Shown here: one piece after another, positions 1 through 4,119 of the stretch | How positions within the stretch are numbered: the stretch's first letter is position 1 | How the letters are laid out: the number at the start of each line of letters is the position of its first letter | Virus record (IMG/VR): IMGVR_UViG_3300030107_002598 | Coordinates: 1-36,029 of that record | DNA length: 36,029 nt | Origin: a virus | Direction: 5' to 3' (one strand) | Notes under the pieces: generated by a model | Database searches by the model: none | Told to the model about the DNA's origin: nothing | Seen by the model: only the letters and a program-made list of their open reading frames with translations | Translations under genes and position numbers: made by a program

Positions 1-885
1 TTGAATGCGGGATTGTGCGACAACGTCGAGAAGGTTCGGAATGCCATTCGGAACGCCTCGGACCCCTACTCCCTAGTGGAAGTCCACGGTCTCCAGAACG
101 CCCCGATTGACTCCATCTTGCGATGGTCTACCCCTCCCGGGCTCACGCCGAGTTTCGATAACATGCGGGGCAGATGTATCCAGATCATTGAGTTTATTCT
201 TGGACTTCCGCAGTATTCACGCGGCGCAGTCGGTGTCGCTGACGTGGCGACCGAGGTGGCTCTCGCGGACACAGCACTACGGACCCGGAACGGACGCCGT
301 ATCAAGGCCATTCACGATGTCATCCGAGATTGGGCAACCAAGATCGTAGCCCTCTACGAAGAGTTCTTGGATGAGGAGACGGTCCTCCCACTTCGACTCA
401 CTGACTCCAAGGAAGTCCTCGAAGCAACCCGAGAGGAGTTGGCGTTCCGTGATGTCAACGCTGAGGAGGATCCAATGGAGTGGGACTACGAGGCCTTGCC
501 CTATTCTCCCACAGAGAACAATCGCCTCGTTCAACTCCAGATGATTCAAAACAATTTGGAGACGCTCCTCCAGTTGCCGGGTGTGGACCAACAGAAGGTC
601 GTCTTCAAATACCTTGACCTCCTCCAACTACGCGAGGCGGCAATACCTGCTCCTCCTCCAGGGGCGATGCAGCCCGGTGCGCCGTTGCCCGGTGAGCAGA
701 TGCCACAGCAGGTGGATGAGGCAGGCCTGCCCAACGTGATGGCAGGCGAGATGCCTATGGGAACTGAGCCTCCACAGGCCCCACTCCCCTTCGGTGGTCC
801 AGGCTCTACCAACCAGTCCCTCAATACGGCGTCTGTAATCGGTGGCCATAAGGGTTCTGGCTTTGACATCCCGGGAGTAAGTTGA
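1..885 (+). CDS. Portal protein, C-terminal part (5' end outside window)
   Basis: The reading frame is open from the first base, so this is the 3' part of a longer gene. The first 150 residues are mostly helical, with an ATE-type segment (GVADVATEVALADTALRTR) followed by long amphipathic helices, as in the stem and wing region of podovirus-type portals. The last 80 residues are rich in Pro, Gly, Met and Gln, a typical disordered portal tail. The next genes are a zinc ribbon, scaffold and capsid, which is the standard portal-scaffold-capsid order. A portal is the dodecameric ring through which DNA is packaged and ejected. The terminase would be expected upstream, outside the window. The stop shares one base with the next start (TGATG). 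The call is an inference from context and helical pattern; the N-terminal core is not visible. Confidence 0.6.
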   Translation: MNAGLCDNVEKVRNAIRNASDPYSLVEVHGLQNAPIDSILRWSTPPGLTPSFDNMRGRCIQIIEFILGLPQYSRGAVGVADVATEVALADTALRTRNGRRIKAIHDVIRDWATKIVALYEEFLDEETVLPLRLTDSKEVLEATREELAFRDVNAEEDPMEWDYEALPYSPTENNRLVQLQMIQNNLETLLQLPGVDQQKVVFKYLDLLQLREAAIPAPPPGAMQPGAPLPGEQMPQQVDEAGLPNVMAGEMPMGTEPPQAPLPFGGPGSTNQSLNTASVIGGHKGSGFDIPGVS

Positions 886-1286
886 TGCCCATTTACGAAA
901 TCTTCTGTGAGGAGTGCGGGCCAGGGGAAGAGTATGCGAAAGTCGCTGACCGCGACAACATCCATTGCCCGGGCTGCCATCGCAAGGTTGAACGTATCCT
1001 TTCGCCTGTGACAACAGTGGGAATTGTCTGGGATAATCGAGTACATGTTCCGCAAATTGGTAGAACCTTCCAGAGTAATTCCGAGATGCGGCAATATGAG
1101 AAGGACAACCCTGGTTTTGCCTTTATGACAAAGAACAGTCCCGAGTGGAGAAAGAAGCTCGACCGGTCACGGGAGCGAGTTGATAAGCTCGCTAAGCGGT
1201 CTGGATTCTCAGACTGGGATGCCATGCAGAAACATGGTCGCGAAGAAAAGAAGAAAAAAGCGGCTAAGGCTAACTCTGCTGGTTGA
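885..1286 (+). CDS. FmdB-type zinc-ribbon protein
   Basis: The start is the ATG at 885, overlapping the portal stop by one base; a TTG one codon upstream is less likely. The N-terminus MPIYEIFCEECG matches the FmdB/CxxC-CxxC zinc-ribbon family. One CxxC pair is in EIFCEECG and a second in HCPGCHRKVERILSP, within the first 40 residues, together able to bind one zinc ion. The remaining 90 residues are a charged helical tail ending in a Lys-rich stretch (EEKKKKAAKA). Small FmdB-like proteins are common between portal and scaffold genes in tailed phages; their function is not established, and a regulatory or assembly role is only guessed. The last codon and stop overlap the -35 box of the promoter that follows. 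Confidence 0.75.
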   Translation: MPIYEIFCEECGPGEEYAKVADRDNIHCPGCHRKVERILSPVTTVGIVWDNRVHVPQIGRTFQSNSEMRQYEKDNPGFAFMTKNSPEWRKKLDRSRERVDKLAKRSGFSDWDAMQKHGREEKKKKAAKANSAG

Positions 1287-1310
1287 CATTTCTACTATGT
1301 CCAGTATAGA
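1283..1310 (+). promoter_or_regulatory. Sigma-70-like promoter for the scaffold/capsid genes
   Basis: A perfect -35 box TTGACA lies at 1283-1288 and a -10 box TATAGA at 1305-1310, separated by 16 bp. The -35 overlaps the stop codon of the zinc-ribbon gene. Transcription would begin near 1317, just ahead of the gene starting at 1334. This is the best sigma-70-type match noticed in the window. It would allow extra transcription of the scaffold and capsid genes, whose products are needed in high copy number. Confidence 0.6.
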
Positions 1311-1333
1311 CCATTATACCTAGCGAGGTTTTA

Positions 1334-1684
1334 ATGCCACTTCCAGGTCAGACCCCAGAGGGTCCCGAAGGTAAATACACTCCACTCCAAATGGCTGACT
1401 GGCTTATTGAGAAGGCTAGTGAGTTCAAGAGTGGTCAAGACCTCCTCGATGAAATGGGGCGTCAAGGCTTCGATTTGGCTTCCTCCGAGGCCGCTCCGAT
1501 GGAAGACCCCATGGCAGACATGCTGGGTGAGCCTCCAATGGAAGAGCCCCCTATGGACGAGGACAAGGGTAAGGGCAAGAAGAAGGTCTCCCTTTCGATC
1601 ATGCGTATCGGCGCAGCCGAGAAGGCGATTGACAAGGACAAGAAGGCTAAGAAGAAGGCCAAGGACGAAGAGGAAGGCTACTGA
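1334..1684 (+). CDS. Small charged protein, unknown function
   Basis: This is a 116-residue protein not recognised from sequence. The N-terminal 50 residues could form a small helical domain (YTPLQMADWLIEKASEF). A Met/Pro/Glu/Asp-rich linker follows (residues 55-77), then a strongly Lys-rich C-terminus (KDKKAKKKAKDEEEGY). An alternating acidic and basic tail is typical of small assembly factors or scaffold partners. It is the first gene after the 1283-1310 promoter, with GCGAGG ahead of the ATG. Its stop overlaps the scaffold start by one base, suggesting translational coupling. A role in procapsid assembly is inferred only from position. Confidence 0.6.
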   Translation: MPLPGQTPEGPEGKYTPLQMADWLIEKASEFKSGQDLLDEMGRQGFDLASSEAAPMEDPMADMLGEPPMEEPPMDEDKGKGKKKVSLSIMRIGAAEKAIDKDKKAKKKAKDEEEGY

Positions 1685-2526
1685 TGGCTGATGACGCGAC
1701 TCCGACTAGCGTTGAAGCACCCGTAGAGAGCGCACCCGTTGAGAGTGCGCCCGCTGCGGAGCCTGCTGCTGTTGAGGCTGCCCCTGATACCTCTGCCGAT
1801 ACCAGCGCACCTACTACCGAGTCACGCCCCAGCGCCGATGACTTTGGTTGGGATGACTGGGACGGCGAGCACTCCGGGCTACCCGAGGACATTTCTCCTT
1901 GGGCAGAAAAAGTTTCGTCGTACCACTCGAAGCGCCATCAGGCGGAGATCGACGAGCACAATCAGTCGTATGAGAGGCTGTCCAAGCTCTACAACGACTA
2001 CCTACTCTCGGGAGAAGATCCCCGGGTCGCTGAACTGACCACTGCTAGTAAGGAGTGGGAGGAGAAGTACAACAACATCAACTCCGAGTTCGAGACTTAT
2101 CGGGCTGGGATTCAGAATCAACTGGAGACTGATGCGAAGGAATGGGCCGACACATTCATCGCGAAGCACAAGGATGTCCTCCAAGGTGAGAACATTCCTA
2201 AGTTCGAGGCAGCGCTTGCCGCTGGCTGGGAACCAGAAGATATCGTGGTGTATCTGGGATTAGACGCTAAGGCGCAAGCCGAAGCCGATGCCGCCCTCAA
2301 GGCCGGTGCCCCATCCAATTTCGCTTTGAAGTATGCCCAGAGGACTGTTGAGCCGCCCAAGCAGGCTCCTCCCCCTCGGGCTGCATCTCACATAGTTTCC
2401 GGCGCTGATGTCGGATCTCGTCCCTCCAAATCCACTCGCGGTCTGAACGACATTAAAAGTCTGGAAGAACGTCGGAAATTGGTTTCGGAAAGGGCAATTC
2501 GAAAATCCAGAAGTGGAAGGAGTTGA
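1684..2526 (+). CDS. Capsid assembly scaffolding protein (putative)
   Basis: The 280-residue protein has the architecture of a phage scaffold. It starts with an Ala/Pro/Glu-rich disordered region (residues 1-60). A helical, coiled-coil-prone and acidic centre follows (about 75-160), including EEKYNNINSEFETYRAG. A Pro-rich linker leads to a basic C-terminal helix ending RAIRKSRSGRS. In P22-like phages a basic C-terminal helix of the scaffold binds the coat protein. The gene lies immediately before the capsid gene, three bases apart, and its start overlaps the preceding stop. Scaffolds diverge quickly, so the assignment rests on composition, length and position. Confidence 0.7.
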   Translation: MADDATPTSVEAPVESAPVESAPAAEPAAVEAAPDTSADTSAPTTESRPSADDFGWDDWDGEHSGLPEDISPWAEKVSSYHSKRHQAEIDEHNQSYERLSKLYNDYLLSGEDPRVAELTTASKEWEEKYNNINSEFETYRAGIQNQLETDAKEWADTFIAKHKDVLQGENIPKFEAALAAGWEPEDIVVYLGLDAKAQAEADAALKAGAPSNFALKYAQRTVEPPKQAPPPRAASHIVSGADVGSRPSKSTRGLNDIKSLEERRKLVSERAIRKSRSGRS

Positions 2527-2529
2527 TAG

Positions 2530-3009
2530 ATGGCTATTTCAGCCGACGTCCTCGCTTCGGCGCTACAGGATCTAGCGCCGGGGTATTCCGAAACCTTCAT
2601 GAAGTGGCATCCGATCTTTGAGAAGATTGTCGCTCGTGGAGGAGTTCAAACCAAGGACCTTCAAGGCCCATACAAGCAGTTCACTGTGGTTACGCAGGGA
2701 CCCGGCTCGACGACGGAAGTTGTCTACGGTTCGGAGCTTGTGAAGGGTGGTCGTAAGCAGGTTGCCTCCTCGGGCACCAGCTACGCCCCGCGCCTCATTC
2801 ACGCGTTCGACGTTCCCCGTAAGGAACTCGACGAGGCGAATGGCGCACAAGACTTGGCGCGTATCCTTGAGAAGTACCCGGAGCTAGCCATGGGCGAGTT
2901 CCATGAGCAGATTGCTTCGCAGCTTGGTACGGGCGCAGGCGCTAACAACCTGGGCGGCTTCATGACGCTCAATGGTGGCGTAGGCGATGCCAGTGCGGGC
3001 AACCCGTAA
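2530..3009 (+). CDS. Major capsid protein, N-terminal half (frame broken)
   Basis: This frame encodes 159 residues and ends at TAA 3007-3009. It begins MAISADVLASALQDLAPGYS and contains the N-arm and E-loop-like segment of an HK97-fold coat protein of the epsilon15 gp7 type: KQFTVVTQGPGSTTEVVYG, then FDVPRKELDEANGAQDLARI and FHEQIASQLGTGAGANNLGG. The rest of the fold continues in the next frame downstream. No stable coat protein is expected from this half alone. The two halves together give about 358 residues, near the usual length for the family. Either one extra base is present in the sequence or ribosomes shift +1 here. The most likely junction is between 2984 and 3007. Confidence 0.8.
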   Translation: MAISADVLASALQDLAPGYSETFMKWHPIFEKIVARGGVQTKDLQGPYKQFTVVTQGPGSTTEVVYGSELVKGGRKQVASSGTSYAPRLIHAFDVPRKELDEANGAQDLARILEKYPELAMGEFHEQIASQLGTGAGANNLGGFMTLNGGVGDASAGNP

Positions 3010-3607
3010 CGGACTCTTCGAGTTCGCGGCCCCCGCTTCGCAGGCTGGCGTTGTCCATGCTCTCGACAAGGGCACCGTGACTGGTTGGGAAAACCAGTTC
3101 GAGACCATCTCCGGTTTCGCGAACGACGGTCGTCGCAAGATGCGCGAAGTGTACTACACTTGTTCGCGTCAGGGCAAGACTCGCGGCAAGGTCGATCTGA
3201 TCTTGGCTGATGAGGCTTCATACCACAACTACCTCGAAGACCTTGAGGACTTCGTGCAGGTTGGTAGCGTTGAGAACGATCACTCCCCCGCCGACGTGCG
3301 TCAGGGCGTGAAGTTCATGGACGCGACGATGTGGCTGGAAGATGCCATCGACATCACGAGCACTGCCTTCCCGACCAACTCCGGTCGTAGCGGTGGTACC
3401 TCGCCAGGTGTGATGTACTTCCTCAACTCGAAGACCTTCCACGCTTACACCCTTTCGGGTGAGGGCGGCGGCGGTTACTTCAAGACCTCTGGCCCGTTCC
3501 GTATTCCGGAGCAGGACCTGTTCCGCTATGAGATCATCCTCTACATGGGTCTCTACTGCGACCAACTCCGAGCCAACGGTGCCATCATCGGTGGCGCGAA
3601 CGCCTAG
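2987..3607 (+). CDS. Major capsid protein, C-terminal half (frame broken)
   Basis: This frame carries the rest of the coat protein. The ATG at 2987 is probably not a real start; no ribosome binding site suits it, and the coding part is best read from about 3008. The P-domain helix (GWENQFETISGFANDGRRKM) precedes a VDLILADEASYHNYLEDL strand-helix. The C-terminal A-domain shows GVMYFLNSKTFHAY and later DLFRYEIILYMGLYC followed by NGAIIGGANA. In the epsilon15-gp7-type coat family the matching segments read like HMYFLNTK and ILWMGNL, which is why this family is proposed. The protein would form the icosahedral shell. The stop at 3605-3607 is followed by GGGAGG for the next gene. Confidence 0.8.
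   Translation: MPVRATRNGLFEFAAPASQAGVVHALDKGTVTGWENQFETISGFANDGRRKMREVYYTCSRQGKTRGKVDLILADEASYHNYLEDLEDFVQVGSVENDHSPADVRQGVKFMDATMWLEDAIDITSTAFPTNSGRSGGTSPGVMYFLNSKTFHAYTLSGEGGGGYFKTSGPFRIPEQDLFRYEIILYMGLYCDQLRANGAIIGGANA
3001..3010 (+). other. Frame-change site in the capsid gene
   Basis: The zero frame reads GGC AAC CCG TAA and the downstream frame needs a +1 move, after which translation reads AAC GGA CTC TTC (N G L F). CCG-TAA is a poor slip site because the proline tRNA cannot re-pair well with CGT. Deleting one C from the CCC at 3003-3005, or one G from 2997-2999, would restore a single frame. A base-call or natural indel is therefore favoured over programmed shifting. Confidence 0.6.
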
Positions 3608-3618
3608 GGAGGTTCGAT

Positions 3619-4119
3619 ATGTCTGGAACTGCTTTTGGTGGAAGTGTTACTCGCGTAACGACCACCCAGGAATTGCCACTCGGCTTCCAAGTTACCGTCC
3701 CGAATGGTGATCTTGGGATGCAGAAGTGGGTCTACGTCTTCAATGACGAGGCTTCGACTGCTTTTGCCGTCGGGCAAATCATCTACCGCGACCCAAGTGC
3801 GGCCACGCAGGACTTTTACGGGGGGCTTATTGCGCCCGTAGATGTCCACCAGCCCAAGGTCATGGTGTTGGGTGTTGCCCAACATGCCATCGCCGCAGGC
3901 TCGTATGGCTTCATTCTTCTGAAGGGTGTCGGCACAATCTTGGCGGGCACTGCCGCGTTGACATTGGACACCCCGTTCACCTCTGGCGGCGCGGACAATG
4001 CCGGTAGGGCTATCGACTACGCTGATGGCACTAACAACGAAAATATCGCTGTTATCGGACACACAGCCACTGCCATTGCTGGCGATGCCACCGGTACCGC
4101 TTACATCGACTGTGACTGA
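3619..4119 (+). CDS. Capsid decoration / head-associated protein (putative)
   Basis: The 166-residue protein is rich in Ala, Gly, Thr and Val, with predicted beta strands and no membrane segment. The pattern ...VLGVAQHAIAAGSYGFILLKG followed by GTILAG and NIAVIGHTATAIAG is typical of small beta-barrel proteins coded directly after a capsid gene, which bind the outside of the shell or form fibre bases. GGGAGG stands 5-6 bases before the ATG. The assignment rests on position and beta pattern. It shares the general style of the protein at 21017-21916, but no close alignment is claimed. Confidence 0.55.
   Translation: MSGTAFGGSVTRVTTTQELPLGFQVTVPNGDLGMQKWVYVFNDEASTAFAVGQIIYRDPSAATQDFYGGLIAPVDVHQPKVMVLGVAQHAIAAGSYGFILLKGVGTILAGTAALTLDTPFTSGGADNAGRAIDYADGTNNENIAVIGHTATAIAGDATGTAYIDCD

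Follow-up and report, generated by a model that had tools for sequence, protein, structure and literature searches.

An HK97-fold major capsid gene in two frames in an IMG/VR virus record, probably through the loss of about 26 bp from a loop-coding stretch

Background

Programmed +1 shifts are known in phage structural genes, the case closest to the one considered here being Listeria phage PSA, in which the capsid gene (cps) shifts at ACA_CCC_(UCC_GAA) with a pseudoknot and the tail gene (tsh) at CCC_UGA, a site that an earlier sequence-only reading of our DNA had mistakenly assigned to the capsid gene; these shifts give a second, extended product and do not join the halves of one fold (PMC5009743). 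Frames may also be changed when replication slips from one short direct repeat to another at a hairpin, a process that occurs in vivo, in vitro and with some PCR enzymes (PMC4134008). The HK97-fold major capsid family PHROG 9953 ('major head protein') usually has a continuous reading frame, and its only solved relative by profile is the capsid of cyanophage Mic1 (6j3q, E 1e-9).

Here we describe a member of this family that is read in two frames. It lies in a virus record from IMG/VR; the record has 36,029 bases and is referred to below as the window.

Results and discussion

One capsid gene in two frames

The split is truly present in the deposited sequence, where one major capsid gene occupies two frames with the open reading frames (ORFs) lying where the sequence-only reading had placed them (Table 1). 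The first ORF terminates with CCG-TAA at 3004-3009, while the ORF in frame +1 has its first ATG at 2987, inside the overlap, from which it would encode 206 aa. The PHROG 9953 profile matches the first product over positions 12-152 (E 1.8e-4) and the second over positions 152-327 (E 4e-8), consecutive to the first match, and our own profile of 342 positions, built from 29 relatives, matches the two halves over 8-152 and 155-339. Since these are consecutive parts of one profile, the two ORFs represent one gene and not two chance frames, and this gene belongs to the family as a broken copy. A Pfam search gave no capsid match, Rfam gave nothing for the whole window or the junction, and no tRNAs were found.

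Table 1. Features of the split capsid gene (positions in the window)
Feature	Position	Strand	Remarks
N-terminal part, major capsid gene	2530..3009	+	159 aa; premature TAA at end
C-terminal part, major capsid gene, frame +1	open 2984..3607	+	199 aa past stop
TAA stop, frame 1, directly past junction	3007..3009	+	preceding codon CCG
Junction, 26 nt of L002 absent	3002..3003	+	DNA alignment gap; site of frame break
Strong predicted hairpin across junction	2978..3060	+	86-nt stretch 2975-3060, -41 kcal/mol, z -2.5

Relatives with an intact capsid gene

A comparison with related phages had been proposed as a check. Of 127 related loci, 126 have > 65% of the model covered by a single ORF, the best ORFs comprising 76 distinct sequences; the one exception, locus L138 on contig IMGVR_UViG_3300026320_000030, carries group I introns. 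There are two of these (L138:57-348 and 1001-1226; Rfam RF00028, 60.8 and 66.8 bits), the second of which interrupts the capsid gene close to the 3' end, the first lying just upstream of or within the 5' part. The phage collection yielded only a weak match, the single-ORF capsid of Bradyrhizobium phage ppBjS10J-1, and the genome contigs searched for relatives yielded none. Nine viral contigs contain the 16-nt word that spans the junction, no capsid relative is encoded on any of them, and these matches were put down to chance.

A protein scan of viral contigs returned one close relative, IMGVR_UViG_3300030104_005343 (L002), although this search may omit records very near the window and relatives closer than L002 may exist. 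The capsid gene of L002 is a single intact ORF of 367 aa. Its DNA aligns with window positions 2-3747 at about 90-91% identity, the N-terminal part of the split protein being 97-98% identical in amino acids to L002 residues 1-158 and the C-terminal part about 85-88% identical. At the junction 26 nt of L002 are absent from the window, and as this is not a multiple of three the gap accounts for the frame change. The four upstream genes keep their frames relative to L002, with length changes in whole codons only.

Against L002, dN/dS is 0.14 for the N-terminal part and 0.30 for the C-terminal part, indicating purifying selection on both halves, and there are no further stops in either half besides that at the junction. 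Taken together, these two observations point to a break that is recent or artefactual.

Since one relative has group I introns within or next to its capsid gene, the gene might be supposed to be interrupted by an intron or another insertion here too. This can be discounted almost completely, as the window is missing sequence and not gaining it, Rfam finds no such element, and the comparison of lengths with L002 refutes it.

The loop and the predicted fold

The missing stretch corresponds to nine residues, about 159-167 of the L002 protein, which fall in a loop that follows the long spine helix. The length of this loop, counted between two flanking anchor residues, ranges from 5 to 20 residues in 30 relatives, and the loop thus appears to be a hotspot of length change within this capsid family. 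In an AlphaFold2 model of the intact relative (pLDDT 70.8, pTM 0.75) residues 151-168 have pLDDT below 50, as for a disordered loop, and sit between strands 146-148 and 170-172.

The predicted fold of the intact relative is HK97-like. Its model matches HK97-type capsids, in agreement with the fold named in the sequence-only reading, and its best Foldseek match is the Mic1 capsid (E 7e-12); the label 'epsilon15-gp7-type' given in the same reading is not borne out, and epsilon15 is absent from the best 50 matches of the fold. The window gene and the PHROG 9953 and Mic1 capsids are alike both in the profile that matches its two halves and in the fold predicted for its intact relative.

A second short stretch of the capsid gene, window 3369-3396, also diverges from L002, in frame, and probably encodes another surface loop.

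Programmed frameshifting

If the split were real in a viable phage, ribosomes might produce a complete capsid protein, its loop shortened, by a high-yield +1 shift or short hop within the overlap (2984-3009), at a point midway through the HK97 fold. There are points of resemblance to known cases: as in PSA cps and tsh, the gene is a structural one and its downstream part lies in the +1 frame. The loop of the shifted product would be some nine residues shorter than that of L002, a length inside the natural range, and the stop has the context TAA-C with a short hairpin immediately 3' of it.

The site itself argues otherwise. Read in frame, the overlap gives the tetranucleotides GGCG, GATG, GCCA, AGTG, GCGG, GGCA, AACC and CCGT, followed by TAAC, and none of these is CCC-N, UUU-N or another +1 slip site of that kind; the description of CCG-UAA as a weak slip site is upheld. 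By codon-anticodon rules, at no codon of the overlap would the tRNA in the P site pair well again after moving on by one base. PSA has CCC slip codons, whereas no CCC codon is in frame here and the break falls in mid-fold. At such a position all of the coat protein would hinge on shifting, while in the known cases only part of the product is extended. The stretch 3007-3086 folds no better than its shuffles (z 0.16), Rfam offers no match, and the same split arrangement is absent from all relatives examined.

The hairpin across the junction (Table 1) has an energy reached by none of 299 sampled stretches, although 4.7% have a z as low. We set it aside as a frameshift stimulator, because it contains the slip codon instead of lying 3' of it and because of that 4.7%; it is a possible promoter of slippage.

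We therefore regard a programmed +1 shift as very unlikely, and a high-yield shift or hop with no classical slippery codon, in a phage that is viable with the split, as an explanation of very low probability; nothing in the sequence requires or points to a shift of the ribosome. We know of no parallel for a coat protein wholly dependent on frameshifting.

It could also be supposed that the capsid is made as two separate chains which co-assemble, the second starting at ATG 2987 in the overlap with GGTGG upstream. However, this ATG comes from GAT-GCC codons, and GATGC is also found out of frame in L002, so that it constitutes no new signal; moreover a single HK97 fold would be divided, and no other relative is split in this way. 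We give this arrangement hardly any credence.

Origin of the break

We consider it highly probable that an ordinary HK97-fold major capsid gene has here lost about 26 bp from the stretch that codes for the loop, which broke its frame, most likely through a chance deletion or a sequencing or assembly fault and not a trick of translation. The sequence-only reading had preferred an indel to programmed shifting as the simpler cause, and an intact gene in L002, with 26 nt more at the very point of the frame change, bears this preference out.

The ends of the missing piece suggest how it may have been lost. In L002 it is ended by CACGTA and CCCGTA, which lie exactly 26 nt apart and agree at five of six positions, and a near-repeat of this quality at a distance of 26 occurs at one position in the whole L002 gene (0.09% of positions), namely the junction. 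There is also an imperfect inverted repeat in L002 (71% over 21 nt), and its loop and the missing piece overlap. We propose that slipped-strand mispairing between the two near-repeats led to the loss, perhaps aided by the inverted repeat around the lost piece. The likeness to slippage deletions lies in a lost piece equal to the spacing of the near-repeats and overlapping an inverted-repeat loop; on the other side, the repeats have only 6 nt, of which 5 are identical, the left one differs from the window at one base, and with just one close relative the sequence of the parental strain is inferred.

The event may have taken place in the phage genome, leaving a recent and probably defective copy, during library amplification, or in an assembly of mixed strains, and the joining of strains that differ in loop length is a possible alternative route. 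As slippage occurs both in vivo and with some PCR enzymes, the event may be either biological or a product of library preparation. As it stands, the sequence predicts two half proteins that would be non-functional.

The same sequence would also result if the strain had a loop shorter in frame, by 27 nt or so, together with a separate one- or two-base indel through sequencing, assembly or mutation. The loop of the relatives does vary widely in length by in-frame steps, and a CCC run (3003-3005) and a GGG run (2997-2999) do exist; a one-base indel in one of these runs was the simplest cause according to the sequence-only reading. With 26 nt missing relative to L002 it is no longer the simplest, because a one-base error needs a separate in-frame shortening of the loop by 27 nt, making two events where the deletion requires one. 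Runs of three bases are not usual sites of short-read error, and this explanation gives no reason to expect a near-repeat with 26-nt spacing at the junction. We consider it unlikely, and retain the loss of about 26 bp as the preferred account. More generally, split hallmark genes in metagenomic phage contigs should be checked against intact relatives before recoding is invoked.

Other features of the record

The record starts inside a gene (window 1-885), where L002 has an ORF of 610 aa, and the contig is therefore incomplete at its left end. Within the block of structural genes, an ORF of 1949 aa at window 15032-20881 matches no entry of PHROG or Pfam. The gene that follows the capsid gene, at window 3619-4119, whose product is possibly a decoration protein, keeps the first 40 or so codons of its counterpart at L002:2616-3074; its second part is replaced or strongly diverged, with no alignment to L002 over 3748-4104, and this pattern of divergence suggests a domain exchange.
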